A stretch of 64,000 nt of DNA from Diploptera punctata. Taxonomy: Eukaryota > Arthropoda > Insecta > Blattodea > Blaberidae. The position numbers and the translations under genes are program-made. Below the pieces are notes generated by a model. That model was not told where the DNA came from and made no database searches. It saw nothing but the letters and a program-made list of their open reading frames with translations. The stretch lies in contig JASPKZ010005708.1 of the NCBI GenBank assembly GCA_030220185.1, forward strand, positions 1,190,501 to 1,254,500, given 5' to 3'. This document shows, piece after piece, positions 3,387 to 64,000 of the stretch (position 1 is its first letter; the number at the start of each line of letters is the position of its first letter).

Positions 3387-3695
3387 GTTTGTAAGAGTTC
3401 AAGTCATTTCTTTTTTTTGGATACCATACCTTACTAGAATCTCAGGAGACTTCAGGTTTGATAAATTATCTAATATATGGCTGGAATGTTATACATTTTT
3501 CTTGGAAAACATTAATAAAAAATTTTCATATTTATAATATGATTTATGTTAAAATTGACCATTGAATTGAAAAAAAAAATTGGGATATTTCTATCCTCTA
3601 TGTACTTTTATTTAACTTTTATAGGATTTAATCACTATGAGGTTTAATTTATGGTGAAATTAAATGTTTCTTACCTCTTCTCATATATATTTTCT

Positions 3696-3742
3696 AAGTT
3701 GATCGCGATTTCGAGACTATAACTGTCTCATCATCAGAACTT
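3696..3742 (-). ncRNA. hammerhead ribozyme, intact core (PLE A, left arm)
   Basis: Read on the minus strand: stem I AAGTT, core CTGATGA, one extra T, stem II GAGAC/GTCTC with loop AGTTATA, GAAA, palindromic stem III TCGCGA, cleavage-site TC, then stem I partner AACTT. All three helices pair perfectly by eye and the conserved catalytic bases are present, so cleavage after the C is predicted. Hammerheads are known in PLE terminal repeats. The extra base after CTGATGA departs from the commonest form. Confidence 0.85.
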
Positions 3743-3993
3743 TGTTGGTGACTGGTGTTATGTCGATTGGAATAAACTCTTCTTCTTCCCTCTGTTGGTG
3801 GACCAATGAACCTCTGGATCAGGTCAAAATTTGCGGGAATTTCGAAGTTCATAAGTTGACTTATAGTCTCGAAGTTGACTTATGAACTTCGAAATTCCCG
3901 CAAATTTTGACCTGATCCAGAGGTTCATCGGTCCACCAACAGAGGGAAGAAGAAGAGATTCTTCCGATCGACATAACACCAGTCGCCAACAAA

Positions 3994-4041
3994 GTTCGTT
4001 CTGATGAGACAGTTATAGTCTCGAAATCGCGATCAACCTAG
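3994..4041 (+). ncRNA. hammerhead relic (PLE A, right arm)
   Basis: This is the inverted partner of the motif at 3696-3742. The right arm reads GTTCGTTCTGATGAGACAG where the left-arm sequence has GTTCTGATGATGAGACAG, so the spacing between the CTGATGA core and stem II has changed and stem I is disturbed. GAAA and TCGCGATC are retained. Probably inactive. Confidence 0.65.
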
Positions 4042-4195
4042 AAAATATATATGAGGAGAGGTAAGAAACATTTAATTTCACCATACCCTATGTACTTGTT
4101 TAAAAACCAGACTAATTCTCACAATTATGAAGTAATATATGAATGAAAATAATTTATTTTTGCAAGAATACTATATATTTAGGATTCAAAGTATG

Positions 4196-4700
4196 TATAT
4201 ATCATCATCATCATCCATGCAAATATTAGGCTGTGTGGCCTGTTACAGTCTCAAAGAGGAATTTTCCATCCAGCGGGCTTTTTTGGACGTCCCAGTGATC
4301 TTTTGCCTTGGGGGCAGTAGCGAAGTATGGCTTTTGGAATTTTATGAGATAGCATTCGTTGAAGATGGGCTTTCCAGTTGTTCTGGTAGTTTTGTATATG
4401 GTGAAGAATGGGTTCTACATTGAACTCTTGCATAATTTCCTCATTTCTTTTATGGTCCCACTTTGTGTAGCCTGCTGTATGGTGCATAAATCACATCTCA
4501 TTTGCTGTTATTTGGCTTTCATCTCTTCTTCGTATTGTCCATGCTTCACTACCATATCTTAATACTGGTCTTGCGAGAACCTTATAAAGCTGTAATCTTG
4601 TGTTCTTCTGTACTAAAGATGGTTTCATTATACTGTTAATTATCCCCGTTGTTTTTGTAAAATTTGTGATTTTCTTTGATATATCAGCTTCATCTTGCTA
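4196..4700 (-). mobile_element. LINE 3' fragment (reverse transcriptase C-terminus)
   Basis: On the minus strand the peptide HHTAGYTKWDHKRNEEIM is followed by QNYQNNWKAHLQRM and GKRSLGRPKK, the GRPxxRW-type tail seen at the end of many non-LTR retrotransposon ORFs. The DNA ends in a (TCA)n-like tail at 4200. It matches the same stretch of the longer LINE copy at 21225-21780. It is 5' truncated at about 4700. It also preserves the empty TTAA site (4559-4562) that a MITE fills in the other copy. Confidence 0.8.
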
Positions 4701-5539
4701 CCTGCTGGCTTCACATCCACATATTTAAATCACAGAGGTGGATGATCATCTAGGCAATATTAGGGTTGAGATGTAGTCAGCATATCAGATCCCCAGTCAT
4801 TATAGCTGGTTTTCTCAACCTGGAACTGCTACTTATTATAGCTACCCAAATTCCAACAATGTTGGGTGGGCAACGGTCCCATATTGGCCAAAGATAAATA
4901 AAAAAAAATCTGCTTGCATGGGGGTTTGAATATGCACGAATACATCATGCTTGGCTATGCACAGAACTACCTGCTGAATCTTGTCAATACACCTCTTATA
5001 TGTGGTTTTAATAGCTCAAAAAAAAAATAAATCTCTCCCATGAGGTTTTAAACTCAGATCTGCAGATTAACAGGCAGGTGTGTCACCATCTGATCTAACA
5101 TAAGAGTATTTGGTTAATGCAAATATATATAATTAAACAGTGCTACTACTATGCAGTGTGCCACATTACACCTTTGTTAAACTACAGCATAATTATACTT
5201 CTTCTTCCTTGCATATGATAGACCTAGGGGTCTGTTACGGTCTCAATCCAATGTTTGAAGGGTCTGCCCAAAGATAATAATTATACAGACAGAGCAAATC
5301 TGCTTCAGATACATCATTTTCAAATTCATAACATTTGCATACAGGAAAGAGGATGATAATCTAGCACTCAGTAAATCTCATTTAAAAACCATTTGTCATA
5401 AAACGGATTTTTTTTAAAATTCTGTGATAAATAATTTATTAAATTTTAACATCTATTTGTGACTCTAGGCATAACTGTAGTAGATTCTAGTATTATCAAT
5501 ATCTATATTTTATTTAAAAAAAATAACAGATAGAAATTC
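4701..5539. other. Intronic spacer, nothing firmly recognised
   Basis: No open frame or clear repeat end is visible. A short block at 5222-5250 (GGTCTGTTACGGTCTCAA) resembles the LINE 3' region at 21245-21268 and a fragment at 36555-36575, so a small LINE remnant is possible. Confidence 0.5.
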
Positions 5540-8815: not shown

Positions 8816-8909
8816 AACGAATGACTCACTTCTTATTTTATCTCATTGTTTATACTGTAGTTTTCAAGAGGAACATCCCTTGCATTTTCAACCAATATTA
8901 TTTCCCATA

Positions 8910-9540
8910 AATTAATGAGTCATTTTTACATCTTATCTCATATTTCATGTTTTATTAAACACGGTAACTATAGTTTTCAAATGATCTTGTCATTAATTTT
9001 CAACCGCCATTATGACTACCGGATATTCGTTGGAATCTCCCTCTATAACGTTGCCATCTGGTGTTGATTTGATGAACTTCGAGATATTGTAGCCATCTGG
9101 TATTGATTTGATGAACTTCGAGATGAGGTCACGTTCATCCGGAATGTCGAAATTCATGGATTTAAATTTGTTCTTCTGAATAAATATTTTCTCCCAAACT
9201 GTCAAATCCAAAGGTTTTTCCAAATGTTTTAGAACAAATTTAAATCCATGAATTTCGACATTCCGGATGAACGTGACTTCATCTCGAAGTTCATAAAATC
9301 AATACCAGATGGCAACGATATCTCGAAGTTCATCAAATCAACACCAGATGGCAATGTTATAGAGGGAGATTCCAATGAATATCCGGTAGTCATAATGGCG
9401 GTTGAAAATGAATGACAAGATCATTTGAAAACTATAGTTACCGTGTTTAATAAAACATGAAATATGAGGTAAGATGTAAAAATGACTCATTAATTTATTA
9501 ATTAAGAACCTCATAATGTGTTTCCCATTTTTAACTTTGA
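8910..9540. mobile_element. Penelope-like foldback, subfamily C
   Basis: ATTATTTCCCATA at 8897-8909 is repeated at 9541-9553. Two inverted arms meet near 9225-9240. The minus arm encodes a GIY-YIG C-terminal tail (LDLTVWEKIFIQKNKFKSMN, FDIPDERDLISKFIKS) at 8993-9223, and the + arm a near mirror. The right edge carries the one-sided extension GAACCTCATAATGTGTTTCCC. Both hammerhead-type motifs are altered (TTGAAAA instead of CTGAAGA), so ribozyme activity is unlikely. Confidence 0.85.
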
Positions 9541-16328: not shown

Positions 16329-17555
16329 ATGGAAAGGTACACATGGAATGAGATGACGGATATGCTGTTGGTGTATGGAAAAGTTGGTTTGGGTCATGTG
16401 GCTGTAAGGCTTTACCAAGAACAGTTCCGAAACTGAAGAGTTCCTCATCATACTGCATTTGCCAGCATTGAATGTAGACTACGTGAAAGAGGCTCCTTGG
16501 ATAGACGAGCAGAAGGTCAAGGACAGCCATGTTGTGTACGGACTCCTGAGAACAAGGAAGATGTGTTGCGGTGCATTGAGTGCAACCCTGCAGCTAGCAC
16601 TCACGCCATTGCTTGACAATTGCACCTAAGTGGTAGCACTGTGGGAAGAATTCTGCAGGAAATGTTGTTGCACCCCTTACACCTTGAAAAGGTCCATGCA
16701 CTGAGGCCTCAAGACTATCCTCTGTGACAGCAATTTTGTCAGTGGTATCTGGACAAAATTGAAAATGTACTTAATTATATTATTTTTAGTCTGATCATCT
16801 TACCTCAGTATTAATGTTGTTTTGAAACATGTCCAAGAACAAATCAACATTAATATTGAGGTAAGATGTTCAGACTAATAATATAATTAAAATAACCTCG
16901 AAATATCACTTCCTAAAATTAAATATTGAAAATGTACTGTTTGCATCCCATATCATGTCCACAGATGAAACATGTTTCACATTCGAGAAGTTATTTAACA
17001 GTCAGAATTGACTGTTTGGGCCATCAGAAATCCCCATGCTACATTTCAGAGGTCACGTCAACTGAGATTTGGTGTTAATATGTGGGCTGGTATATTTTTA
17101 ATAGGACCATACATTTTGCTCCCCCAACTCAATGCTTACAATTACTTGTATTTCTGCAACAAGTTTTGCCTGATCTAATGGAAACAGTTTCCCTTCATAT
17201 CAGGCAGGACATGTGGTTTCAACATGATGGGGCACCAGCTCACTTTGGTGCTGAAGTACACCATCATCTTATGGCTACATACGGCAATCACTGGATAGGC
17301 AGAGGTGAATCCATTGCCTGGCCGGTGTGCTCCCCTGACCTTACTCCACTTGTCTTCTTTTTGCGGGGGCACATGAAGACTATCATGTATGAAAGACTTG
17401 TTGAATCTGAAGAGTACCTTGTGGCACAAATAACCTTTGCAGGTGGCGAAATCAGAGAAATGGCTGATGTCTTTGCGAGAGTATGGCAGAATATGGCATG
17501 CCGATGCACTCTTTGTGTTAATCACAATGGGAATGTGTTCCAACATTTGCTTTGA
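16329..17555 (+). pseudogene. Tc1/mariner-like transposase, interrupted
   Basis: It starts MERYTWNEMTDMLLVYGKVG, the helix-turn-helix N-terminus of a transposase type common in arthropod genomes, with several stops before 16760. After the Penelope insertion it resumes, and from 17082 encodes MWFQHDGAPAHF (second catalytic Asp region), then CSPDLTPLVFFLRGH, where the usual Asp after TPL is Val, and a C-terminus CRCTLCVNHNGNVFQHLL. The loss of that Asp plus the stops make it inactive. Confidence 0.78.
16772..16924. mobile_element. Penelope-like mini-foldback, subfamily D, with 14-bp target duplication
   Basis: ATTGAAAATGTACT at 16758-16771 is repeated exactly at 16925-16938. It is 153 bp long. 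The arms carry CTGATCATCTTACCTCA and GAGGTAAGATGTTCAGA. The right edge has the one-sided tail AACCTCGAAATATCACTTCC. Only the GAAACATGTC part of the hammerhead survives. Removing it heals the transposase reading, which fixes its borders. Confidence 0.92.
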
Positions 17556-22740: not shown

Positions 22741-22989
22741 GTAAAATTGAAAATGTGATTATTTAAAATAATGTTGCATTTTACAGTTTTATTTATTCTG
22801 AATATAAAAGATTAATTATTAATAATTTTAAATATTAATTTCATATTGAGCATTTCATAATGAAGATTATAGAATCTGATGTACTTCTCTTTTAAGTTAT
22901 GTATGAGTTCACAGTTAAATATGGGAAATAACATTATGAGGTTCTTCTTCATAAATTAATGAGTAATTTTTGATATCTTACCTCATATT

Positions 22990-23690
22990 TTATGTTTTCT
23001 TAAACATGGAAACTGTAGTTTTCAAAAAGACATCCCTTTTATTTTCAACCGACATTATGACTACCCGATTTTTGTTGGAATATCCATCTATAACATTGCC
23101 ATCTGGTATTAATTTGATGAACTGATCGTTGCCATCTGGTGTTGATTTGATGAACTTCGAGATCAGGTCTCGTTCATCTGGAATTTCGAAATTCATGGAT
23201 TTAAATTTGTTCTTCTGAATATATATCTTCTCCCAAACTGTCAATTCTAAAGGTTTTTCCAAATGTTTTAGAAGTTTGGCCTCTTTTTCAATTTTATGAC
23301 TCTCCAACAAACTATGTACTGCAATAGTTGATTTTTCAATTTCACCATTTTTAATGTTTCTAAAATGTTCCTTTGTGCGAGTGTCCAAATTCCTTTTTTG
23401 TTTTTCCTATGTATACATCATTGCAGTCTCTACAACTAATTGATAAATTCAAGATTATTTACTATCTGCGGTGTTCAACTTCTTATTGGTTATTAATAGA
23501 TTACCAAGGCTAAATTTATTTATCGGTGCCAATGTAATATTGAATTTCTTGAAATTAAAAAAAAATTGTTATGTATTTCAAGATGATTAGTAATTTTCTC
23601 AAGTTGTTTTCCTTTCTTTGAATCAGATTGCAGGGTGGTGTATTCTTTTAATCTTTTTTGTTGTCTGAATTTGGATCCTGGCACTATATA
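22990..23690 (-). pseudogene. PLE GIY-YIG endonuclease part, frameshifted
   Basis: From 23690 down: LKEYTTLQSDSKKGKQLEK, ITLAPINKFSLGNLLITN, then after stops SCRDCNDVYIGKTKK (the YIG of GIY-YIG), TRTKEHFRNIKNGEIEKST, and the tail ELTVWEKIYIQKNKFKSMNF. In PLEs this nuclease nicks DNA to prime reverse transcription. Stop codons near 23460 and a frameshift near 23400 inactivate it. Confidence 0.82.
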
Positions 23691-24085
23691 ACATGAGAAT
23701 AAAACCAGTGACAACCAATCGCCTCCAAAGTAACAGACCGTGTAGAAAACATCACCACACAAGAATAAAAAAAGGTGGTTAAATTAAAATCACCACATAT
23801 CGAATAATAAAATAAACGAAGTGAATAACATACAGTTAAACCTGTAGAAAAATAAAAAAAGAAAAAAACCAAAAATATTTAAGTATCTTAATGACACTGT
23901 TTCCAAACTCAACTATAAATAAAAAAACACAATTTCCAACACACAGCCAGTCTGCAGATGACAGTTGAAGAGTTAGGAGGTCATAAAGTATGCAGAATCT
24001 CCTGAGGATGCCTACCGCAGTAGCAGAGGAAAGGTTGGGTGTTAATAAAACCAGACCATGACCATTTAGCCCGAAAGACATAAAA
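23690..24085 (+). mobile_element. second PLE terminal-repeat relic inserted in the PLE above
   Basis: This segment is foreign to subfamily C, whose coding sequence resumes at about 24085. Near its right end, CTGAGGA (24002-24008), an extra T, GCCTAC..GTAGC, then GGAAAGGTT resembles a hammerhead with small insertions before GAAA. It ends TGTTAATAAAACCAG. Borders are approximate. Confidence 0.5.
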
Positions 24086-24135
24086 GACATGAATTTGGAG
24101 AAACCTTTAGAATTGACAGTTTGGGAGAAGATATA

Positions 24136-24195
24136 TTATATTATTTTTAGTCTGATCATCTTACCTCAATATTAATATATATTAATAATAGATAT
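24136..24195. mobile_element. short subfamily-D Penelope fragment
   Basis: ATTATTTTTAGTCTGATCATC and TTACCTCAATATTAATAT match the left end of the D elements at 16772, 56907 and 61309. The host text GGGAGAAGATATAT is repeated on either side (AGATATATT), so this tiny piece inserted by itself. Confidence 0.7.
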
Positions 24196-24509
24196 ATATT
24201 CAGAAAAACAAATTTAAATCCATGAATTTCGAAATTCCTGATGAATGAGACTTGATCTCAAACTTCATCAAATCAACACCAGATTGCAACGTTCATTTCA
24301 TCAAATAAACACCAGATGTCAACCTTCAGTTCATCAAATCAACACCAGATGGCAACGTTATAGATGGAGATTCTAACGAAAATCCGGTAGTCATAATGTC
24401 AGTTGAAAATGAAAGAGATGTCCTTTTTAAAACTGCAGTTTCTATGTCTAAGAAAACATAAAATATGAGGTAAGATGTAAAAAATGATGCATTCATTTAT
24501 GTACAAGTT

Positions 24510-25285: not shown

Positions 25286-25403
25286 GTGAGTTTAGTAATG
25301 ACATAACCAATAAAACCTTTTTCTGCGGAATTTGTAGGAAATAATAATAATAATTTTTTTATGGTGAAATTAAATGTTTCTTACCTCTCCTCATATCTAT
25401 TTT

Positions 25404-25742
25404 CTAAGTTGATCGCGATTTCGAGACTATAACTGTCTCATCATCAGAACTTTGTTGGCGACTGGTGTTATGTCGATTGGAAGAAACTCTTCTTCTTCCC
25501 TCTGTTGGTAGACCAATGAACCTCTGGATCAGGTCAAAATTTGTGGGAATTTCGAAGTTCATAAGTTTTCTTTTGTTTTTCTGATTGTGGATCTTTTCCC
25601 AAACCGTGAATTCCTTTTGTTTGTCTATTTGTTTAATTAGACTGGCTTTTGATTCAATTAAATGTTTTTCGGACCAAGCATGAGCAGCTACTGCTGATTT
25701 TTCCACTTCTCCATTTTTGATGTTTCTAAGATGTTCTTTCAC
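25404..25742 (-). CDS. PLE GIY-YIG endonuclease C-terminal part (left arm)
   Basis: A 112-residue open frame: KEHLRNIKNGEVEKSAVAAH, IKQIDKQKEFTVWEKIHNQK, FEIPTNFDLIQRFIG and the end DDETVIVSKSRST. It corresponds to the C-terminal half of the PLE nuclease, without the GIY/YIG motifs. Its last codons coincide with the hammerhead at 25406-25452. It is truncated at its start by the foldback junction and is unlikely to be expressed. Confidence 0.72.
   Translation of the reverse strand: MKEHLRNIKNGEVEKSAVAAHAWSEKHLIESKASLIKQIDKQKEFTVWEKIHNQKNKRKLMNFEIPTNFDLIQRFIGLPTEGRRRVSSNRHNTSRQQSSDDETVIVSKSRST
25406..25452 (-). ncRNA. hammerhead ribozyme, intact (PLE A, left arm)
   Basis: Minus strand: stem I AAGTT (25448-25452), core CTGATGA (25441-25447), extra T, GAGAC/GTCTC stem II, GAAA (25419-25422), TCGCGA stem III, TC cleavage site (25411-25412), AACTT stem I partner. 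Every helix pairs by eye. Confidence 0.87.
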
Positions 25743-25781
25743 CCTTGTTTTTAAATTCTTAGAAACATCAAAAATGGAGAA

Positions 25782-26084
25782 GTGGAAAAATCAGCAGTAG
25801 CTGCTCATGCTTGGTCCGAAAAACATTTAATTGAATCAAAAGCCAGTCTAATTAAACAAATAGACAAACAAAAGGAACTCACGGTTTGGGAAAAGATCCA
25901 CATTCAGAAAAACAAAAGAAAACTTATGAACTTCGAAATTCCCACAAATTTTGACCTGATCCAGAGGTTCATTGGTCCACCAACAGAGGGAAGAAGAAGA
26001 GTTTCTTCCGATCGACATAACACCAGTCGCCAACAAAGTTCTGATGATGAGACAGTTATAGTCTCGAAATCGCGATCAACTTAG
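25782..26084 (+). CDS. PLE GIY-YIG endonuclease C-terminal part (right arm)
   Basis: Mirror of the left-arm frame: EKSAVAAHAWSEKHLIESKA, ELTVWEKIHIQKNKRKLMNF, EIPTNFDLIQRFIGPPTEGR, SSDDETVIVSKSRST, stop TAG at 26082-26084. The coding text for SDDETVIVSKSRST is the same DNA as the ribozyme core, so protein and ribozyme constraints overlap here. Confidence 0.72.
   Translation: MEKSAVAAHAWSEKHLIESKASLIKQIDKQKELTVWEKIHIQKNKRKLMNFEIPTNFDLIQRFIGPPTEGRRRVSSDRHNTSRQQSSDDETVIVSKSRST
26036..26082 (+). ncRNA. hammerhead ribozyme, intact, sense to the host gene
   Basis: Stem I AAGTT 26036-26040; core CTGATGA 26041-26047; extra T 26048; stem II GAGAC 26049-26053 with GTCTC 26061-26065; GAAA 26066-26069; stem III TCGCGA 26070-26075; TC 26076-26077; stem I AACTT 26078-26082. 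Predicted cleavage is after 26077, seven bases before the end of the overlapping stop codon. Because it is on the host strand it would be transcribed within the intron 25286-32537. The equally strong inverted arm could pair with it and block folding. Confidence 0.87.
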
Positions 26085-26179
26085 AAAATATATATGAGGA
26101 GAGGTAAGAAACATTTAATTTCACCATAAATTAAATCTCATAGTGATTAATTCCTATAAAAGTTAAAAATAATTTTTTT

Positions 26180-27251: not shown

Positions 27252-27488
27252 AAAATATTGCCTACTTGCTTTCTGGAGATTATTTGTTCTCTCTGTAAAT
27301 CTTAATGAGAATATGGATTGAGATCATTATCTGGTGTATCCAACCTTCATTCAATTTTCTAATCCTCTTTATAAATTTTGGAGGAAAAAATAGTAAATTG
27401 TACTGAACTTTTATAGGAATATATCACTATGAGGTTTAATTTAAGATAAAATCAAATGTTTCATACCTCTCCTCATAATTAATCTTTT

Positions 27489-27534
27489 AAGTAGATCGTG
27501 ATTTCAGGTTCATGGCAAACCCATCCTCAGTACC
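27489..27534 (-). ncRNA. hammerhead ribozyme, core intact (PLE A, composite element)
   Basis: Minus strand: stem I GGTA, core CTGAGGA (27524-27530), extra T, stem II GGGTT/AACCT, GAAA (27502-27505), stem III TCACGA with one A-C mismatch, TC, then TACT. The opposite end of the element (31700-31745) reads CCGAGGA and lacks GAAA, so only this arm is likely active. Confidence 0.72.
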
Positions 27535-27704
27535 ATTTTGCTGACTGGTGTTATGTCGATTGGAAAAACCACTTCTTCTTCCCTCTGTAGGTGGACCAGT
27601 AAACCTCTGGATCAGGTCAGAATTTGCAGGAATTTCAAGGTTCATAAGTTTTTCTTTAATAATGAATGGAGAACATATTTTAATTGACTCACCTCATACA
27701 TTTT

Positions 27705-28178
27705 CAAACTTCTTTGATACCGACGGTTTCAGACAATTTCTTGGCTAATTTATATATGAGTTACTTCGAGTGCCATATCACCAAGGCTTACCCATGGATT
27801 TTCAAGAGTTGGTACAGATATGTTGATGATATTTTTTCGATAATAAATTTTAAACATGTTGATGATGCGTTGAAATTACTTAATCTACAAGATGTATCAA
27901 TTAAATTTACCATAGAATCAGAAATTGAAAACAAAATTCCGTTTTTGGATTTATACATAATTAGGAATGAAAAAACTCAAAAAATTGAATTTGATATATA
28001 TAGGAAGGGTACACGTACTGATAATTATATTAAATCAACGGGTTTCAATCCACTGGCACATAAACATGCAATATTTAATAGTCTCTTATATAGATTAATA
28101 AAGGTCCCATTAAAAGGAGAAAATTTTAAGAAAGAATATGAAAACATCCTAAATATAGCCAGATTAAATGGTTTTTAA
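27705..28178 (+). CDS. PLE reverse transcriptase C-terminal part
   Basis: The frame carries FLANLYMSYFECHITKAYPW, then WYRYVDDIFSI, the catalytic YVDD of a Penelope-type RT, then KIPFLDLYIIRNEK and ... NYIKSTGFNPLAHKHAIFNS, the PLE signature around FLDL and HP/HK. It begins at the 5' truncation, so the palm domain is incomplete. One frameshift at about 28170 (ARLNGF, then FKKDIISNKLKKF in the next frame) separates it from the endonuclease frame, which it would normally be fused to. Confidence 0.82.
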   Translation, partial: QTSLIPTVSDNFLANLYMSYFECHITKAYPWIFKSWYRYVDDIFSIINFKHVDDALKLLNLQDVSIKFTIESEIENKIPFLDLYIIRNEKTQKIEFDIYRKGTRTDNYIKSTGFNPLAHKHAIFNSLLYRLIKVPLKGENFKKEYENILNIARLNGF

Positions 28179-46239: not shown

Positions 46240-46299
46240 TTGGAATAGATTAAAATAGAGTGTAATTATCTCACCTCATAAACTCTGTGTTCTTCAAAG

Positions 46300-46348
46300 C
46301 ACAGGACCATGGTTTCTGGAACAGTAGTTGTTCCCATCTTCAGCCATT
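46300..46348 (-). ncRNA. hammerhead ribozyme, intact core (PLE F, left arm)
   Basis: Minus strand: core CTGAAGA (46337-46343), extra T, stem II GGAACA/TGTTCC, GAAA (46313-46316), stem III palindrome CCATGG, TC (46305-46306), CTGTG that pairs ATGG with G-U pairs for stem I. Stem II may be offset by one base. Confidence 0.78.
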
Positions 46349-46642
46349 TTTACAACTTGAATTTTTCTCTTCATTTTCTAAACCGCCATCTAGTATTGAT
46401 TTGATGAACTTTGAGATCAAATCTTGCTCGCTGGAAATTTCAAAATTCATGAATCTAAATTTGTTCTTCTGAATGTATATCTTTTCCCAAACTATCAATT
46501 CTAAGGGGTTTGCCAAATATTAAAAAAAAAAACTTATTTTTCAATATTATGATTCTCTAGCAAACTATGAGCTGTAATTGTTAATTTCTCAATTTCACCA
46601 TTTTTAATATTTCTAAACAGTCTAAATTCAGCAGTCGTAAAA

Positions 46643-46687
46643 ATGGCTGAAGATAGGAAGAACTGTTCCAGAAATCATGGTCCTGTG
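46643..46687 (+). ncRNA. hammerhead ribozyme, core intact (PLE F, right arm)
   Basis: CTGAAGA 46647-46653, extra T, GGAA/TTCC stem II with an A-A mismatch at its base, GAAA 46671-46674, TCATGG stem III, TC 46681-46682. It is slightly weaker than its left-arm partner. Confidence 0.68.
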
Positions 46688-46787
46688 CTATGAAGAACAC
46701 AGAGTTTATGAGGTGAAATAATTATGACCTATTTTAACTTGAAAGCCTCATAATGTTATATCCCATAATTAAATAATTGGAATAGAC

Positions 46788-48023: not shown

Positions 48024-48230
48024 ATGGTGAAATTAAATGTTTCTTACCTCTCCTCATATAAATTTTCTAAGTAGATCGCGATTTCGAGACCACAATGGTC
48101 TCATCTTCAGCACTTTCTTGTCAACTGATGTTATTTCGATCGGAAGAAACTCTTCTTCTTCCCTCTGTTGGTGGACTGATGAACCTCTGGATAATTTTTT
48201 TTGCAGATGTGGAATCGATGGCGACTTTTG
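48024..48230 (-). mobile_element. Penelope-like terminal-repeat fragment, subfamily A
   Basis: TGGTGAAATTAAATGTTTCT and TTACCTCTCCTCATATAAAT match the left arms at 3650 and 25365. It continues through the last codons of the nuclease and breaks off near 48200 (GGATAATTTTTTTTGCAG). No second arm. Confidence 0.82.
48069..48115 (-). ncRNA. hammerhead ribozyme, best-formed copy
   Basis: Minus strand: stem I AAGTG (48111-48115), core CTGAAGA (48104-48110), extra T, stem II GAGACC/GGTCTC (6 bp) with loop ATTGT, GAAA (48082-48085), stem III TCGCGA, TC (48074-48075), TACTT pairing stem I with one G-U. No mismatch in any helix. Unlike the foldbacks it has no inverted partner to compete with its folding. 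Confidence 0.88.
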
Positions 48231-48655: not shown

Positions 48656-48770
48656 ACAAAATTAATTATATTTAATTAATGTTGGGAAGTAAACATTATG
48701 AGGTATAATCATTAAAATTCATCGGAGAACATATTGTTTAAACAACTCACCTCATAGGATTCATGCTTCC

Positions 48771-49550
48771 ATGATATCGCATGCAATATTCAATAGCTTA
48801 ATTTACAGATTGACAAATGTACCATTAAACGAAAAAAATTTCAATAAAGAGTTTAAACATATCTTAAACACTGCTAGATTAAATGGTTTTGATAAAGAAT
48901 TAATTATAAATAAGTTGAAGAAATTCAAACACAATAAAAGACTTAATGAATATACTACTCTACAAAATTGCAAAGAAAAGAAAAAATACAAGAAAATTAC
49001 TTACCATCCTGAAATGCATAGGAAATTTCAAAACATTTTTGACAAATACAACATTTCTTTGGCACCAATAAATAAATTTAGTCTGGGAAATCTTCTAAGT
49101 ACCAATAAAAAAGTCAATGTTCCAGACAGTAAGAAATCTGGAATTTATCAAATAAATTGTGAAGATTGCAATAAAGTTTATATAGGAAAAACAAAAAGGA
49201 ATTTGGAAATTCGGACAAAAGAACATTTCAGAAATATTAAAAATTGTGAAATTGAAAAATCTGCAATTGCTGCACATAGTTTATTAGAACATCATAAAAT
49301 TGGAAGAGAAGCTAAACTTTTAAAACAAGTAGAGAAACCTTTGGAATTGACAGTTTGGGAAAAAATATACATTCAGAAAAACAAAAATAGATCAATGAAT
49401 TTTGATATCCCTAACGAAATTATATCGATTTCGAAGTTCATAAATTCAACCATAGATGGCAGCACTGAAGATGGTGACAATAGAATAGTTGACGACCGAA
49501 GAATTTCATCAGTCGGAGTTATGGCTGACGATGAACATGATTATGTTTGA
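48771..49550 (+). CDS. PLE RT tail, linker and GIY-YIG endonuclease, open frame
   Basis: 259 residues, the longest intact PLE frame here. It starts inside the RT C-terminus (SHAIFNSLIYRLTNVPLNEK), then a basic linker (KLKKFKHNKRLNEYTTL), NISLAPINKFSLGNLLSTNK, KKSGIYQINCEDCNKVYIGK (GIY, CxxC, YIG), TKRNLEIRTKEHF, ELTVWEKIYIQKNKNRSMNF, DIP. It ends DDEHDYV with the stop at 49548-49550 inside the hammerhead. The catalytic Tyr, Arg and a conserved Asn region are visible. Truncated upstream, so not autonomous. Confidence 0.85.
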   Translation: MISHAIFNSLIYRLTNVPLNEKNFNKEFKHILNTARLNGFDKELIINKLKKFKHNKRLNEYTTLQNCKEKKKYKKITYHPEMHRKFQNIFDKYNISLAPINKFSLGNLLSTNKKVNVPDSKKSGIYQINCEDCNKVYIGKTKRNLEIRTKEHFRNIKNCEIEKSAIAAHSLLEHHKIGREAKLLKQVEKPLELTVWEKIYIQKNKNRSMNFDIPNEIISISKFINSTIDGSTEDGDNRIVDDRRISSVGVMADDEHDYV

Positions 49551-49566
49551 AATCGCGATATCATGG
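49519..49566 (+). ncRNA. hammerhead ribozyme overlapping the endonuclease stop codon (PLE B)
   Basis: Stem I TTATGG 49519-49524; core CTGACGA 49525-49531; extra T; stem II GAACAT 49533-49538 with ATGTTT 49543-49548; GAAA 49549-49552; stem III TCGCGA 49553-49558; TA 49559-49560; stem I TCATGG 49561-49566 (6 pairs, three of them G-U). All catalytic bases present. Confidence 0.86.
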
Positions 49567-49829
49567 AAGCATGAATCCTATGAGGTGAGTTGTTTAAACA
49601 ATATGTTCTCCGATGAATTTTAACAAAATTAATTACTTGAATTTCAAATACTGTATTTGCTAGCATAAAAGATGAACTGGCTTTTAAGATCCATCTCCTT
49701 TCACTTGTAAACTTTTAGGAAAATCACCATTTAAGGAATTTATTGTAATTCAAACAAAATGTAATAAGCAGATACACTTTAAACAAATACAGCATCTAAT
49801 ATAACTAATCATCATCATCTTAAGGCATG

Positions 49830-51210
49830 ACAACTTAAAAAGTGAAAGTTTTTGCCTTCGCAACAATCCTCTTCCATGCCAATCTGTCTCTTGCCATATT
49901 CAAAATAGTCACTTTCATTTTACGTAGATTGTACATTGTGTCATCCTGCCATCTGATCTTCAATCTTCCAAAAGCTCTGCCTCCTATATGTTTCCATTTG
50001 TAGAGTTTCTTGACCAATCTCTGATTCATTCTTATCAAATGTCGAAGCCAACCAATTCTGAGAGATCTTATATGGTTTACTATGTTTTGATTTTTGGTTA
50101 ATTTGTTTAGTTCATTATTATTTTTTGATTCTCCAACAGTTATCAGTTCCTCTATTTGGTCCAAATATTCTTCTTAAAATTTTTCTTTAAAAAATTAGTA
50201 ATTTCTGTTTTATTGTTTCTTTTAGGACCCAAGTTTCACAAGCATATGTAACTACTGGTCTAATGAGTGTTTTGTATAACCTTATTTCTGCAGTTTTTGA
50301 TATTAATTTGCTTTTAAATAAGGTTCTATTTGCAAAATGTATTCCCATATACCAATCTTTCCATAATTTCCTCTTCTAATGCATTATGTTCATTTACTTT
50401 GATACCTAGGTATTTAAATGATTCTACTGTGTTAATTTGCATGTCATCAATTTGTAGATTTTCCGATTTTCTGTTGTGATTAACTACATTTTAAAAATTT
50501 TGTTTTCTCTTGATTTATTATTAGATCAATTTTTTTAGATTCCTCTTTCAATTTTGTGAAGGTTTCACATAACGCTTGTCTGGTTCTTGCTGTAATCAGT
50601 ATGTCATCTGCATAAGATATACACTGGTTGAGTTTTGTTGTAATATTTCCCCTTAATTTCATTTTCGTAAATATATAATCAATGATTAATCCATATAAGG
50701 TAGCTGAGAGGGAGTCTCCTTGTTTGACTCCTGATTTAATACTGAAACTTTCACTTAGTTTATTGTTGATTTTTTACTTTAACAGTTGTATCTATTAAAG
50801 TTAAGGATATCAATTGAATTAATTTGTGTGGTACTTATTCAAAGTTAAAATTGGGAAACACATTATGAGGTTCTTAATTAATAAATTAATGAGTCATTTT
50901 AACATCTTACCTCATATTTCATGTTTTATCAAACACGGTAACTATAGTTTTCAAATGATCTTGTCATTCATTTTCATAGTCATAATGGCGGTTGAAAATG
51001 AATGACAAGATCATTTGAAAACTATAGTTACCGTGTTTGATAAAACATGAAATATGAGGTAAGATTTTAAAATGACTCATTAATTTATTGTGTGGTACTT
51101 GATAATGTTTAAGGCATTCAATTATTTGTTTCCTATTGACAGAATCAAAAGCCTGTGTGTAGTCTATAAAAATATTATGCAGATGTATGTTGTGTTCATA
51201 ACACTTTTAA
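49830..51210 (-). mobile_element. LINE fragment, minus strand, interrupted
   Basis: From high to low: FIDYTQAFDSVNRKQIIECL (catalytic block A) near 51200-51110, then the PLE insertion at 50837-51087, then NQCISYADDILITARTRQAL (YADD) at 50662-50480, and the C-terminus 50164-49835 (IRSLRIGWLRHLIRMNQRLV, GGRAFGRLKIRWQDD, DRLAWKRIVAKAKTF). Motif order fits a non-LTR RT. Stops are frequent. The TCATCATC run at 49809 is the 3' tail. Confidence 0.85.
50837..51087. mobile_element. Penelope-like mini-foldback, subfamily C, 13-bp target duplication
   Basis: TTGTGTGGTACTT at 50824-50836 is repeated exactly at 51088-51100, within a LINE. It is 251 bp: extension GGGAAACACATTATGAGGTT on the left, arms of about 100 bp joined at CATAGTCATAATGGCGG. 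The hammerhead cores are TTGAAAA or shorter, hence inactive. Confidence 0.93.
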
Positions 51211-51835: not shown

Positions 51836-52425
51836 AATTAGCTGTCTAAACTTGAATATAAACATAATAAATAGAAAACAGTAAAGAACGAACAGTCGTG
51901 ATTTAAATATAACATTAGTACACATAATAAGTTCTTACATTCTTCTTCCACTATCGTACTTAGTCTTTATTCATTCCAAACAAAATTACGTATTCTTGAT
52001 GAAAAGAAAATGGAACAGTCCTCAGCCAGGGGATCTTCCCTTGATCCCCGGCGACCTTCCCCTTCCAGGAATCAAAGCTTAACTCTGACTGTTAATGGTA
52101 CCAGTCTCTGCGTCTTGGACGTAAGCATCGGCACATACCAAACCATGCCGATGACGTAAGGAGATGGAATAGGAGGGGTTGAGAAGGGAAGGAAAGAGCA
52201 CAAAGCACAGTCTTTAATAACCACAGAGAATAAACAAGTTATATCACAGTACGTCAACGGCAGTAAATTTTCGTCATCACGGCACAAGATGATTTATTTA
52301 AAATAGGTGTTTTTAAATCAATTTTTTATACTGATTCCAGAAGTGATTTCCATTTTTGACTATCATGTCAGGTTTTTACACAAAATAAGAATAATCAATT
52401 GAGTTGGTGTTTACTTGATGAAAAT
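51836..52425. other. Spacer, nothing recognised
   Basis: A GC-richer stretch at 52020-52160 (GGATCTTCCCTTGATCCCCG) stands out from its AT-rich surroundings, but I cannot assign it. Confidence 0.45.
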
Positions 52426-52493
52426 CCATATTTATTAATTAAATAAAAATAAAACGTAGTTTTATTTGATTTTCATATTTATTATATAATTCA

Positions 52494-52532
52494 GTGACAG
52501 CTGTTTCGGTACACTGTACCTTCTTCAGACAT
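52494..52532 (-). ncRNA. hammerhead ribozyme, intact core (left arm, second PLE lineage)
   Basis: Minus strand: CTGAAGA (52522-52528), extra A, GGTAC/GTACC stem II with loop AGT, GAAA, palindromic CAGCTG, TC (52496-52497). It lies about 60 nt after the nuclease stop. Confidence 0.83.
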
Positions 52533-52590
52533 GTTAACAAATTATGAATTGTGTTCCAACTGATCTAAGCAACAATACAACAATATTTAT

Positions 52591-52890
52591 TTAAATTTTT
52601 AAATTTAACAAAGGGGATTCATTCAAATCAAGTTGAGAATTTAACAGTTTTTTACTACTTTTAAATGTATTAATTTCTACAGCCTCCAAAAGATCTAACT
52701 TCTTACCCTTATCACAAATATGTAAAATTTCAAAATTTGGATTGAAACAATGATTAAATTGGAATAGGTGGTTAGCATATTTTGAATTTTCTAAATTTCT
52801 GTTATATGCTCTCATGTGTTCCTTTATCCGAGAGATAAAAGGTCTACCAGTTTGTCCTATATAGACATTGTCACATGTGCCATACTTCAA
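52591..52890 (-). CDS. GIY-YIG endonuclease domain of a second PLE lineage
   Basis: KLKYGTCDNVYIGQTGRPFI has the YIG half of GIY-YIG with a single Cys nearby (the GVY half lies just upstream in SGVYKLKYG). SRIKEHMRAY, SKYANHLFQFNH and LEAVEINTFKSS follow, the RxxEH...SxxAxHxxxxxH...E pattern of the nuclease fold with the catalytic Glu. 99 residues. Sequence is quite unlike the subfamily A-F nucleases. Confidence 0.82.
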   Translation of the reverse strand: MKYGTCDNVYIGQTGRPFISRIKEHMRAYNRNLENSKYANHLFQFNHCFNPNFEILHICDKGKKLDLLEAVEINTFKSSKKLLNSQLDLNESPLLNLKI

Positions 52891-53011
52891 TTTATATACA
52901 CCTGATATACAACTTGATTTGAATGAATCCCCTTTGTTAAATTTAAAATTTAAATAAATATTGTTGTATTGTTGCTTAGATCAGTTGGAACACAATTCAT
53001 AATTTGTTATC

Positions 53012-53051
53012 ATGTCTGAAGAAGGTACAGTGTACCGAAACAGCTGTCACT
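53012..53051 (+). ncRNA. hammerhead ribozyme, intact core (right arm, second PLE lineage)
   Basis: CTGAAGA 53016-53022; extra A 53023; GGTAC 53024-53028; loop AGT; GTACC 53032-53036; GAAA 53037-53040; CAGCTG 53041-53046; TC 53047-53048. Stem I is short or interrupted (GT with AC). Confidence 0.83.
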
Positions 53052-53394
53052 GAATTATATAATAAATATGAAAATCAAATAAAACTACGTTTTATTTTTA
53101 ATTAATTAAAAATAAGAATATATTTTTTCACGTTTTAGCTACTATAAGCATAAATATATTTAAACTTCATTTCACACAAAATAAATTTTCGTTAAGAATA
53201 CATGTTAAAAATACTGTAAAGAACTGTCCTAATTATTTTGTGACTACCTTGTAACAAAACAGAAAGTTAATGGTGTTCCATTAATTTTGAAACCTTCTCT
53301 TTTTTCACTTACTTGAAGTTCCTCCATTTTTATTCTCCATCTTCAACATCCAACTGTAGTCAGCCATCATAGTTTCATTCCATGTTTGTAAATT

Positions 53395-53775
53395 AATGAG
53401 TCATTTTTTAACATCTTACCTCATATTTTATGTTTCTTCAAACACGGGAACTAGTTTTCAAGAGAAGGATCTCTCTCATTTTCAGCCGACATTATGACTA
53501 CCGGATTTTCGTTGGAATTGTTGGAATCTCCATCAATAACGTTGCCATCTGGTGTTGATTTGATGAACTTTGAGATGAGGTCACGTTCATCAGGAATCTC
53601 GAAATTCATGGATCTAAATTTGTTCTTCTGAATATATATATCTTCTCCCAAATTGTCAGTTCTAAAGGTTTTTCCAAATGTTTTAAAAGTAGGGCATCTT
53701 TTTCAATTTTATGATTCTCCAATAAACTATGTGCTGCAATAGCTGATTTTTCAATTTCACCATTTTTAATATTTC
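53395..53775 (-). mobile_element. Penelope-like fragment, subfamily C
   Basis: TAAATTAATGAGTCATTTT, ACATCTTACCTCATATTTTA give the left terminal repeat. The minus strand encodes EDIYIQKNKFRSMNFEIPDE and, upstream, NIKNGEIEKSAIAAHSLLEN. It is cut at 53775 where the unnamed repeat begins. The hammerhead core is CTGAAAA (G lost) with a good palindromic ACTAGT stem III. Confidence 0.82.
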
Positions 53776-56894: not shown

Positions 56895-56906
56895 TGTATA
56901 CTTTTA

Positions 56907-57136
56907 ATATTTAATTTTAGGAAGTTATATTTTGAGGTTATTTTAATTATATTATTTTTAGTCTGATCATCTTACCTCAATATTAATGTTGATTTGTTCT
57001 TGAACATGTTTCAAAACAATTCTGTTTTATCGTCAGCTTTTCCAGTTTGACGATAAAACAGAATTGTTTTGAAACATGTTCAAGAACAAATCAACATTAA
57101 TATTGAGGTAAGATGATCAGACTAAAAATAATATAA
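56907..57136. mobile_element. Penelope-like mini-foldback, subfamily D, 12-bp target duplication
   Basis: TGTATACTTTTA at 56895-56906 is repeated exactly at 57137-57148. The left edge has the extension TAGGAAGTTATATTTTGAGG. The arms of about 85 bp are almost perfectly inverted and joined at AGCTTTTCCAGTTTG. Confidence 0.94.
57003..57040 (-). ncRNA. hammerhead ribozyme, intact core (PLE D, left arm)
   Basis: Minus strand: CTGACGA (57030-57036), extra T, AAAACA/TGTTTT stem II with loop GAAT, GAAA, palindromic CATG, then TT. On the right arm the first base of the core is T (TTGACGA), so only the left arm is likely active. Confidence 0.75.
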
Positions 57137-57148
57137 TGTATACTTTTA

Positions 57149-60860: not shown

Positions 60861-61397
60861 GATGTCGTCTGTATTGTGAGAATGGAGGTGGTAAATTTTA
60901 ACAATTTCTTCTGATGAGTCTGCAGGTGCTTTACTTTTTTTCTGATTTACTCAAATGTATTGCTTTTTATTTCCCAATAACATTATGTATGTCATGTGTA
61001 CATACACTGTATTTCTTCATGTTATTACCCTTGTGTACTGTCATTTTCTAAGTACATAAGTACTGTACAGTACAATTACACATTTTATTTGCAAAACCTA
61101 TTGTACTTTTCAATATGTGTATTATTGTTATGATCTTTCAAACGATTACCTGTACAATATGTACGTAGTTAGTTTAGTAACTCTGTACATTTCAATACCG
61201 TCAATACTGTATTCTGTAAAATAATGAATAAACAATTAAACCAGAAGTAAATCTACGTATGTAACTAATTTACATTACGTACATAATAAAGGAAGAAAGG
61301 AAAAGAAATATTTAATTTTAGGAAGTGATATTTTGAGGTTATTTTAATTATATTATTTTTAGTCTGATCATCTTACCTCAATATTAATATTGATTCG

Positions 61398-61445
61398 TTC
61401 TTGGACATGTTTCAAAATAATTCTGTTTTATCATCAGCTTGTCCA
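61398..61445 (-). ncRNA. hammerhead ribozyme, core intact (PLE D, left arm)
   Basis: Minus strand: CTGATGA (61431-61437), extra T, stem II AAAACA/TATTTT with one mismatch, GAAA (61410-61413), CATG, TC (61404-61405), CAAG. Confidence 0.74.
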
Positions 61446-61535
61446 GACTGGTTTGATTTATATTGCATTATGTTGCACACCCTGGATGGAGCTGACATCG
61501 ACATCCAGGGTATGCAACATAAATTAAACCAGTTT

Positions 61536-61582
61536 GGACAAGCTGACGATAAAACAGAATTGTTTTGAAACATGTCCAAGAA
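61536..61582 (+). ncRNA. hammerhead ribozyme, core intact (PLE D, right arm)
   Basis: CTGACGA 61543-61549; extra T; AAAACA 61551-61556 with TGTTTT 61561-61566; loop GAAT; GAAA 61567-61570; CATG 61571-61574; TC 61575-61576. Stem I may use TTGG (61534-61537) with CCAA, leaving an internal loop of the type used for loop-loop contacts. Confidence 0.76.
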
Positions 61583-62114
61583 CAAATCAACATTAATATT
61601 GAAGTAAGATGATCAGACTAAAAATAATATAAGGAAAATAAAGTTTACACATACTGTATGTAGTTTCGAACATTTGCTTCAGTAGTAAGACTGCTATAAC
61701 CACCGAGCTAAAGGCGCATACTTGTTACAAGTTACAGTCTCTGTATCATATTATTTTTATTTTAATTTGAAACAATCAATGGCGTGCCAACCATTTTACA
61801 AATTGAATCATAACTTGGACATTTTTATTCGTACACCATTAGTTCATTAACTCAAAATGCTTATATAATACCCCTCTACACATAGTTAAATTTGTGCGGT
61901 ATAATTCATTTACACCCAGTGTATATATAGTTTGAGGAGAGTATATTTATTAATTAAATTTAGTTCATCTTTTGGGGAGTGATTAAATACTTTCCTTTTA
62001 ATTATTTCTTAATTATTACTTTATAGTGTCACTTCCTATTGATTATGTGTAAATTTATAATTTTATTATTAATTAGTTAATATTTCATTTCAAAATTTGT
62101 AATTGTATGAATGA

Positions 62115-62235
62115 ATGAGTCATTCTAATCTTACCTCATATTTAATGTTTTTTTAAACATGGGAACTGCACTTTTCAAGAGGACATCCCTCTCATCTTCA
62201 GCCAATATTATGACTATCGGATTTAACTATGAACT
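62115..62235 (-). mobile_element. Penelope-like terminal-repeat fragment, subfamily C
   Basis: ATGAGTCATTCTAATCTTAC, CTCATATTTAATG match other C left ends. It breaks off at about 62225 (TATTATGACTATCGGATTTA). Confidence 0.8.
62158..62206 (-). ncRNA. hammerhead ribozyme, subfamily C copy with intact core
   Basis: Minus strand: stem I TGG, CTGAAGA (62195-62201), extra T, GAGAGG/CCTCTT stem II with loop GATGT, GAAA (62073+100 to 62176, that is 62173-62176), stem III AGTGCAGT with one G-G mismatch, TC, CCA. It shows the ancestral core from which the TTGAAAA and CTGAAAA copies at 8910, 22910, 50837 and 53395 decayed. Confidence 0.76.
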
Positions 62236-62815
62236 TGTAATTATTGGACCAAAGAGTCTAGGTGGCAAGATGCCTGGCTATGTATTGGGCAGTCTGGGAT
62301 GAATTGTGGAAATCAGTCCTAGTAATCTAGAGGCTATCATACAGATTCATATCTGATAGATCAGTGGATTTTTCAAGGGGTATAGCTTACTTGGGAAGTA
62401 GATTTGGATTATAAACTTACAACACCACTAGAACCTCAAATCTGAAATTAGAGGCCTCTGTGCAAATTCTGTTAGCTCTTTCTCACCACAGCTTTGGATT
62501 GTGACACTTGTTGTCTGGACATATTAAAGTATATCGTGGAATAAAATGTAACCAAAATAATCTTAGGCACTGAGCATCTGTATTCTGATCAACTCTTGTG
62601 CCCATTTTTCTTATTTAAAATGAGTACCAGGAACCTTCCTGGGTCTCTTTTTGTACTGTGGCAAAGATTTTGCATCTCTGAGGACCTTTCATGACCTATT
62701 AACAGGGTACCTTGTATCTTACTTTTATCATAAAAATTTCAATTTAAAAAATGCAGATAATGAGGTTAAGTTTAAAATTGATACAGTATTAAATTTCACT
62801 TAGATGCCATTTCCT
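62236..62815. other. Spacer, nothing recognised
   Basis: 62690-62720 (TTTCATGACCTATTAACAGGGTAC) resembles 31930-31955 (TTCATGACCTATTAATAGAGTAC), so a shared repeat exists whose identity I do not know. Confidence 0.5.
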
Positions 62816-62819
62816 CATG

Positions 62820-63440
62820 TTAACAAGAATTTGCTGCACCTCCATTAAACTCTTCTTCTTCTTCTTTGGCTTTCCTCCACTTATAGATTTGCCGTCTTCA
62901 GTTTCCATTTATTTCTATCATTCCAATCTCCTTCTTCCAAATTCCTATCATTCATTATAGTTATGACATAAGTTTTCCATTGCCATCTTGGTCTGCCACA
63001 TTTATTTATATATTTGGCCATCTTTATTTTCCATTCTCTGTACATGGCCATACCATTTACCATTAAACTCATGATCTTAAAATAATTAGATAGGTCATAA
63101 AATTAACTTAGTAATGAGAGAATTTTCAAAGATGGGATGGCATTGGTTATCAAGAAAATGAGTAGAATATTTTCTAAAAAACTGTCAAATTTTGTTAATA
63201 ACATATTTCTCAAACATTTCTTAATATTCTAATCATTCTTGTACTAAATTCAAAGCAAATAAATTAAGAAAATGTGTAATTTTCAAAATTTGGTGATTTA
63301 AATTCTTTTTTCTCATTTTTAAAAATAAAAACCAGTGTCTTTGAAAATTCTCTCAGTCACTAAGTTCGTTATGGTCATTCCAGGCATGCATTTTATTTTA
63401 AGATCAGAGTTTAATGGAGGTACAGCAAGTTCTTGTTAGA
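62820..63440. mobile_element. terminal-inverted-repeat element carrying a LINE scrap
   Basis: TAACAAGAATTTGCTGCACC, TCCATTAAACTCT (62821-62852) is inverted at 63408-63440. Inner text is also inverted (CTTAGTAATGAGAGAATTTT at 63106 against AAAATTCTCTCAGTCACTAAG at 63344). The 62855-63075 segment, minus strand, encodes MAMYREWKIKMAKYINKCGR, PRWQWKTYVITIMNDRNLEE, a LINE C-terminal tail inserted in the left arm. Confidence 0.75.
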
Positions 63441-63599
63441 TATCATCACTTTTAAATGGTGTCCCTATCATTATCATAAGATACTTACGTTAGATTTTAA
63501 AAATAATTCAGATACTGTATAATATCATAATAAAATAAACATAAAACTAATCTCTAATAATTTAGCTACATTTTAATACTTGAGTTTGTATATTTTAAC

Positions 63600-64000
63600 A
63601 TTCTTACCTCATATGTTTGTTTTGTTGGACAATCATTTCAAAGCTTATTGCTCTATCTTCAGCTTGTCACAAACTGTTTTTTTTCTTTTCTTCAAGTTTG
63701 GTAAATTGTTTTAAGGAATTAGGCAAAGGTTTATTCGCCTGTTTATCAAAAACATTGCTTCATCAGATACCTCTTACTTCATCTTATTTTATAATTTATA
63801 ATTTTGCACTGTGTGAAATACCTTTTTTCCTGGATCTGTGTTCCAAAGAACTTGGTAATGAGGCTCCTTTCTCTGGGAGTTTCAAAGTCCATAATTTTCT
63901 CCTTGTTCTTCTGTATATCAATTTTTTCCCCATACTGTGAGTTCATTGGTATTTTCTGTTTTAATAATCTTGTATTTAGATCTATTTTGTGTTTTTCTGT
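63600..64000 (-). mobile_element. Penelope-like element running off the window end
   Basis: The left terminal repeat has TTCTTACCTCATATGTTTGT. The minus strand encodes DLNTRLLKQ, MNSQYGEKIDIQKNKEKIMD, FETP, EKGASLPSSLEHRSRKK, a diverged relative of the nuclease tail (VWEKIxIQKNKxKxMNFEIP). The coding sequence continues past 64000. Confidence 0.8.
63624..63668 (-). ncRNA. hammerhead-type motif, core intact, weak stem III
   Basis: Minus strand: CTGAAGA (63656-63662), extra T, stem II AGAGC/GCTTT with loop AATAA, GAAA (63636-63639), then TGATTG with only wobble pairs for stem III, TC. A yet further diverged version of the same layout. Confidence 0.6.

Follow-up and report, generated by a model that had tools for sequence, protein, structure and literature searches.

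What are the hairpins that recur along a 64,000-nt stretch of the Diploptera punctata genome (contig JASPKZ010005708.1, positions 1,190,501 to 1,254,500; hereafter the window), and how did they come to be there? A first-pass annotation had read them as a swarm of hammerhead ribozymes, lodged in one intron and carried by many lineages of Penelope-like elements (PLEs). We consider it likely that they belong to old PLE insertions that carry minimal hammerheads, that were made by two-ended priming and that are probably dead-end products.

Are the hairpins hammerheads? A strict pattern (CTGANGA, one base, a stem II of at least 4 bp, GAAA, a self-complementary stem III and TH) matches the window 17 times, as against a mean of 0.05 in 40 order-1 Markov shuffles and 0.175 in 40 order-3 shuffles. 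When 191 permuted cores were sought in the real window, with a stem II of at least 5 bp, the mean was 0.016 and the maximum 1; the true core gave 17. The copies at 46343 and 62201, which lie outside the strict one-base pattern, also keep CTGANGA and GAAA, and bring the total to 19, each of which was dissected; about 16 intact copies had been proposed. Some 17 additional copies of the same families, either partners or decayed and counted by eye from blastn clusters, take the place of the earlier figure of about 12. The core C3U4G5A6N7G8A9, G12A13A14, A15.1–U16.1 and H17 is present in the 19 copies, the exceptions to the standard core being confined to family 8, with U3–A8 or C3–A8. The three sequences named at the outset contain hammerheads at 26041(+), 48110(−) and 49525(+). 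As judged from their sequence, these are confirmed as genuine type I hammerheads with predicted self-cleavage, additional members of a kind already known, the minimal PLE hammerheads. Scans of viral and prokaryote contigs found no relatives.

Can a covariance model find them? The first-pass annotation had named a lack of such matches as grounds for abandoning its reading and, taken literally, this is what the Rfam search of the window returned: zero hammerheads at the gathering cut-off or at E ≤ 10, the only matches above cut-off being four tRNA. But our own model, for which nine copies of families 2, 3, 4 and 7, each with a 16-nt stem-loop, served as the training set and which was run with filters off, found copies of the held-out families 1, 5, 6, 8 and 9 at E values from 5e-5 to 0.022. 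It recovered 63662 (5e-5), 62201 (0.0016), 46343 (0.005) together with its partner at 46643 (0.003), 48110 (0.012), 52528 and 53016 (both 0.015), 3737, 25447 and 26041 (all 0.018) and 53485 (0.022), and matched 27530 only weakly (0.15); a match at 39556 (0.041) coincides at least in part with a weak blastn match to 46343. Since the Rfam models miss every copy in the window, insect genomes may hold more such ribozymes than are annotated. Many microRNA matches below the Rfam cut-off were also returned, mostly on inverted repeats.

All three stems covary across families, as had been claimed for stems II and III, and the six stem II pairs listed earlier are all present. In 12 representatives, one per sub-lineage, stem II is paired in 60/60 cells, a figure inflated because stem II pairing was used for finding copies and the register of 46343 was set by hand. 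Less affected by this selection bias are the double changes in stem II (21, against a shuffled mean of 5.4) and the two other stems. Stem III, a palindrome of 6–10 nt with no loop or a 1-nt loop, is paired in 45/47 cells with 13 double changes (3.7 shuffled), and is mismatched in 27530 and 62201. Stem I is paired in 40/60 cells with 14 double changes (7.6 shuffled); it is weak past 3 bp, and in the families of 61543 and 63662 it is reduced to 1 bp. A model-made alignment of 27 matches (24 distinct rows, a few non-PLE matches included), which favours structure by construction, has stem II 96.6% paired, with 40 double-change cells against 10.9 shuffled; sliding the stem II partners abolishes the pairing. 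Two further counts in this alignment are unremarkable, the number of pairs with double changes being reached by 66, and the number of pair types by 185, of 500 shuffles.

What of the extra base before stem II? In a type I hammerhead nothing should lie between A9 and stem II, yet one nucleotide does so in 18 of the 19 copies, as the first-pass annotation had it for all; 46343 is ambiguous, having either two extra bases and an unpaired A, or none. The base is T in 12/19 copies, A in 28814, 52528 and 53016, and G in 32185, 32198 and 33110. A register without it was rejected as a general reading, fitting just 46343 and, as an alternative to its one-base fit, 48110. In copies whose endonuclease open reading frame (ORF) extends as far as the ribozyme, the extra base falls at the third codon position of Asp, Glu or, in the U3–A8 copies, Asn. 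A viroid hammerhead, the subject of a title among the references of PMC6155905, has an additional core nucleotide. U is reportedly the base best tolerated there.

A second variation is the exchange of C3–G8 for U3–A8 in family 8. Within this clade 62201 has C3–G8 and 53485 has C3–A8, while 9402, 9003, 23048, 24403 and 50992, from three paired insertions with differing flanks, have U3–A8. So does an older fragment at 8891, its stem II decayed; in 24403 G12 is also changed, and 50977(−), which is paired with 50992, is truncated by the junction and has A at position 3. A scan of positions 3 and 8 over the window gave C–G 18 times and T–A four times (three in PLEs; 20820 is unrelated), T–A averaging 0.33 in 60 shuffles with a maximum of 2. 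The combinations A–A, A–G, C–A and T–G, one each, were set aside as junction or decayed copies, and nine C–T matches, all in one tandem repeat at 43.6–45.2 kb, were taken as chance. The repeat array extends over 43423-45376 with periods of about 124–126 and 277, and has a tRNA-like element (44866-44939) inside it. The swap is not a new core variant: according to the available text of PMC3088659, C3–G8 covaries to U3–A8 in natural hammerheads and the swap is active in vitro.

Which elements carry the hammerheads? Our own grouping, by hammerhead sequence and blastn rather than by formal clustering, gives nine families and 12 sub-lineages. The carriers would thus be about nine endonuclease-bearing PLE families, GIY-YIG endonuclease adjoining several copies, which bears out the earlier attribution to many Penelope-like lineages. 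Ten proteins were searched against Pfam (eight PLE-like or retroelement ORFs and two host exons); three exceed the GIY-YIG (PF01541) cut-off, at 48702-49547, 28168-28836 and 31277-31600, and 52591-52980 falls below it. The ORF at 27684-28175 has a YVDD-type motif by eye and no Pfam match; most copies are 5'-truncated. A separate reverse transcriptase fragment (RVT_1) at 22250-22762 belongs to another retroelement. A database search on the carrier returned 14 proteins, nine of them from Diploptera punctata. The predicted host proteins P0007, P0008, P0009 and P0013 include PLE-like pieces, and the C-terminal peptide of P0009, a zinc-finger model, resembles the translation of a U3–A8 hammerhead, either a gene-model artefact or exonisation.

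Endonuclease ORFs enter or cross the hammerhead in the 26041, 28814, 49525 and 23048 families, in the frame NCT-GAN-GAx. In all nine copies with a 16-nt stem-loop this frame meets a UGA composed of U11.1, G12 and A13; only 28814 and 49525 retain enough of the upstream ORF to show that this UGA is the actual stop. A conserved [AST][DE][DE] peptide at the core was rejected as independent evidence of protein conservation, because CTGANGA forces it in that frame. A splice-donor-like AGGTRAG lies ~15–25 nt past the predicted cut in 13/19 copies (for example, at 32255-32264 and 49580-49589), as ATGAGGTRAG in 7/19; it is absent from 27530, 28814, 38807, 52528, 53016 and 61543.

How are the copies arranged? 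By blastn and inverted alignment they form 16 head-to-head pairs with their 3' ends pointing out. With five single copies, and in addition to fragments, the window would hold about 21 old insertions. Inverted terminal repeats, a short target-site duplication (TSD) and an optional tail, as expected of PLEs, are all found. The blastn copy list has no direct tandem copies except the same-strand neighbours 9003(−) and 8891(−), which adjoin because an older copy has the 8907 insertion nested next to it. The boundaries of the insertions and the ends of their arms were set by eye, and the flank control used identical windows. The outer flanks share a word scoring at least 8 in 15/16 pairs (median 13), as against 34/240 for swapped flanks (median 6, maximum 14). 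The exception is pair 22951 (score 7); the shared words of 32986 (8) and 61313 (9) include a mismatch. We conclude that the matching flanks are target duplications of about 10 bp.

The two outer ends of a pair are unequal, one reaching ~35–45 nt farther than the other into a common ~40-nt 'tail'. Scored against the other insertions, exactly one end is tail-like in 15/16 pairs, the call resting on the gap between scores of 44–90 and 17–25; a computed 99% cut-off was unusable, random windows having overlapped real tails (contaminated 95% point, 41). In pair 52404 neither end has relatives, and a longer left end is suggested by the target duplication only. If the ends chose their starts independently and with equal odds, the chance of 15/15 one-tail pairs would be ~3 in 100,000. 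Of the scoreable pairs, 10 have a left-hand and five a right-hand tail, which, by eye, follows neither the longer nor the shorter arm. A low-support tree, its masking slightly off because cores 9003 and 24403 had been placed 5–6 nt away, at 8998 and 24397, was not used as evidence. TATGAGGT could base-pair, in some families, with the ACCTCATA of the tail, and the two might form a stem-loop where reverse transcription starts. Our search of the open-licence literature, in the text available to it, found no report of the extra base, the ORF-end overlap or the one-tail count in PLEs.

How might such insertions arise? Each family would have, close to the point where the ORF ends and the 3' segment in which reverse transcription starts takes over, a minimal type I hammerhead, which in several families may also supply the final codons of the ORF. 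If source copies stand in tandem, the palindromic stem III could let neighbouring hammerheads pair as a double hammerhead, whose cleavage close to the stop codon would divide the multimer into units. At a new site both strands would be nicked about 10 bp apart, each nick priming a complementary DNA (cDNA). One cDNA would begin at a distal site and so include the tail, the other at a proximal site without it, and the two would be joined head to head, often where one of them halts in or near the hammerhead. We infer the cleavage, its timing and the two-ended priming from the layout described above; two-ended priming would explain the paired ends, the 10-bp duplications and the unequal ends together. 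An anole PLE protein, in the available part of PMC11167929, cuts each of the two strands and extends it, begins internally, at sites that bound a 'tail', and uses uncleaved RNA. No arm end or inner junction read by eye coincides exactly with the predicted cut, and a start of reverse transcription from ribozyme-cut RNA was rejected on that reading. A bolder version holds PLE insertion to be obligately two-ended and asymmetric, always with a distal start on one strand and a proximal start on the other, so that each complete insertion would be a head-to-head pair with exactly one tail and a ~10-bp duplication, the hammerhead serving as ORF terminator and as the site at which the two cDNAs halt and are joined; to this we give somewhat less than even credence. 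Since the copies are mostly in head-to-head inverted pairs, no sense–sense dimer is expected in cis, and the swarm is probably not a working one. Inverted neighbours could instead form a long hairpin, making activity in place unlikely, and the copies here are probably dead-end products.

Several observations weigh against this account. The palindrome supplies the diminished stem III that would be completed only in a dimer, but the predicted dimer fold is only partly favoured. The predicted dimer minimum holds the entire double hammerhead for just one of 13 sequences (9402, 30/30 pairs), the other 12 minima holding 0 to 18 of their 20–32 pairs. The double hammerhead is predicted to lie above the minimum by 2.0 (26041), 2.2 (9402) and 3.7 kcal/mol (48110), and by 4.9 to 13 kcal/mol for most others, 61543 and 63662 being far off. 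Five copies (38807, 48110, 53485, 62201 and 63662) are without a partner arm, and a full-length tandem source element was not seen in the window. The ORF of family 6 (52591-52980) ends ahead of its ribozyme (core 52528), so that ORF overlap is not universal. Our covariance model also matches 13699 (E 0.006), 18202 (0.022) and 59713 (0.064), which fit no known PLE copy. As for published systems, the anole hammerhead, in the accessible sections of PMC11167929, depends on protein and is not required for insertion in vitro; no difference in start site between the strands was seen there, which does not lead one to expect a single tail in each insertion. The available text of PMC3846280 proposes that inverted structures of this kind arise by self-priming on an antisense template.

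Might the ribozyme fold be kept for a structural job, such as binding PLE protein or stopping reverse transcriptase, and not for cutting? We think this unlikely, though it deserves a hearing. Cleavage mutants insert normally (PMC11167929, in the text at hand), and stem I is 1 bp in two families. About 15/32 arm ends, read by eye, fall within −20 to +45 of the core, exceeding equal-length neighbouring stretches; this clustering is weak evidence and can only suggest that the fold slows synthesis, because shorter cDNAs are always commoner. The catalytic bases are nevertheless retained in 19 copies, and the pairing-preserving change from C3–G8 to U3–A8 points to an active fold.

Self-priming seems to us a little less probable still. 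A single cDNA or antisense template would fold back and copy itself, so that one priming event would give both arms. It has been proposed for rotifer Penelope from palindromes at inverted junctions (PMC3846280, available text), and would suit the short centres, 9–56 nt, of several pairs here. Yet the copied-back arm should repeat the first outer end, and 15/16 pairs have one tail only, which favours two separately primed reverse-transcription events over snap-back copying; in some pairs (27653, 48686 and 27406), moreover, the arms differ in length by hundreds of bases. That the hairpins are by-products of ORF-end coding or shared ancestry, with no selection on RNA, is very improbable: several families have the core in the same frame as their endonuclease ORF and copies within a family are related, but the core word with its stem occurs 17 times against at most once for permuted words, the stems differ between families and still pair, a palindromic stem III has no coding reason, and the family 6 hammerhead lies outside its ORF. 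The preferred reading remains that of old insertions made by two-ended priming.

Where do the individual insertions lie? In family 1, insertion 3614..4085 (tail left; TSD about CTATGTACTT) has its hammerhead, core to H17, at 3701..3737(−) in the left arm. The arms of insertion 25352..26164 (tail right) are about 390 nt, with hammerheads at 25447(−) and 26041(+), the latter (26041..26077) crossed by ORF 25755-26084. An outer insertion, 27406..31800, with hammerhead 27530(−) and a partner at about 31700(+), contains a nested family 2 insertion, 27655..28960 (tail right), which comprises the end of a reverse transcriptase, a GIY-YIG ORF and hammerhead 28814(+) (28814..28850), its stop UGA being U11.1–G12–A13. 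Family 1 also includes a decayed pair at 33314..33562 (tail left) and a single arm with a hammerhead at 48074..48110(−). The family 3 insertion 48667..49623 (TSD CAAAATTAAT) has an endonuclease ORF, 48702-49550, that ends in the hammerhead at 49525..49560(+), and a short inverted left arm with the tail. The hammerhead of family 4, at 38772..38807(−), is single. The family 5 pair 46250..46777 (tail right; TSD TTGGAATAGA) has hammerhead 46343(−) and a decayed partner at about 46647(+), and the family 6 pair 52385..53106, whose tail is not scorable, has hammerheads 52528(−) and 53016(+) and an endonuclease-like ORF, 52591-52980(−).

Family 7 has a compact insertion at 16771..16921 (tail right), both arms being truncated in or after the hammerhead, a compact pair at 56906..57137 (tail left; TSD GTATACTTTT) with hammerhead 57036(−) and a decayed partner at 57047(+), and a pair at 61308..61632 (tail left) with hammerheads 61437(−) and 61543(+). 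In family 8 the insertion 8907..9536 (tail right; TSD ATTATTTCCC) has U3–A8 cores at 9402(+) and 9003(−) and is nested beside the older fragment 8845..8906(−), whose U3–A8 core is at 8891. Insertion 22908..24500 (tail left; flank score 7, the weakest) has U3–A8 cores at 23048(−) and 24403(+), an ORF (22990-23406, −) running through the former. A 44-nt family 7 fragment, 24135-24178, lies in its right arm, perhaps as a nested mini-insertion. The compact family 8 pair 50838..51089 (tail left; TSD GTGTGGTACT) has a U3–A8 core at 50992(+); the single copies are at 53455..53489(−), with a C3–A8 core, and 62163..62201(−), with C3–G8. The family 9 hammerhead, 63628..63662(−), is single, with a stem I of 1 bp. 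Two further compact pairs have their tails on the left: 32037..32298 (TSD TCTTCAAGT), with hammerheads 32185(−) and 32198(+), and 32965..33233, with hammerhead 33110(−) and a decayed partner at about 33134(+).

Do the hammerheads share one intron? Host coding blocks lie at about 3129-3388, 18519-20737 and 24975-25306, by eye a single coiled-coil gene. Provided that this is one gene, the hammerheads occupy at least three introns. The gene may be outspread/MPRIP; nine plus three database matches, from searches that covered the middle block, had no informative name. Three frames in succession are open along the block at 18519-20737, and the frame changes near 19330 and 19805 may be assembly indels, small introns or decay. 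ARAGORN reports six tRNA-like genes (313-383, 2743-2817, 8728-8799, 33879-33945, 44865-44940 and 51738-51809), perhaps heads of short interspersed nuclear elements. Remnants of mariner-like transposases were seen by eye at 13367-14204 and 37171-38318; the covariance-model match at 13699 is in or at one of them, probably by chance. The first-pass interpretation therefore survives in its hammerheads, its PLE lineages and its covariation, and gives way on the single intron and, probably, on any working swarm; the density and diversity thought notable for this locus more likely come from a presumed PLE-rich genome.

How do these copies compare with known systems? Cervera & de la Pena 2014 and Lunse, Weinberg & Breaker 2017 reportedly deal with the minimal type I hammerheads that Penelope-like elements carry. 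That hammerheads occur in PLE terminal repeats was correctly given as known. The parts of PMC7761336 and PMC6155905 available to us describe them, with a minimal stem III and a proposed dimeric action, and the former calls their activity and role in vivo a mystery. The copies here share the diminished stem III, the terminal region and the proposed dimeric action; they differ in having the extra base in nearly all copies (which the published consensus may also include), a palindromic stem III of 6–10 nt, and a head-to-head rather than direct tandem arrangement. Metazoan retrozymes, as presented in the accessible text of PMC7229834, likewise have type I hammerheads in mobile DNA, but are small, tandem, non-autonomous repeats whose hammerheads are canonical, with interacting loops. 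Identity with them was rejected, several copies here adjoining endonuclease ORFs and none being in a working tandem. With the natural hammerheads of PMC3088659 (available part) family 8 shares the covariation of C3–G8 to U3–A8; here the carrier is a PLE lineage, with three paired insertions and one older fragment, and the extra base is present as well.

The closest likenesses are to two PLEs, as far as the available texts describe them. Anole Poseidon PAc (PMC11167929) also has a hammerhead over an ORF boundary, internal starts that define the tail, and both strands cut and extended; there it is the start codon that lies at stem II, whereas in several families here it is the ORF end that the hammerhead overlaps. 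Adineta vaga Penelope (PMC3846280, the main text of which has 0 occurrences of 'hammerhead') shares the inverted pseudo-long terminal repeats, the 8–10 bp TSD, an optional one-sided tail and palindromic junctions. It is of low copy number, whereas here exactly one tail is found in 15/16 pairs. The origin of inverted PLE copies is left open in the available portions of both papers; the one-tail regularity and the target duplications turn it into a simple genome-wide count.

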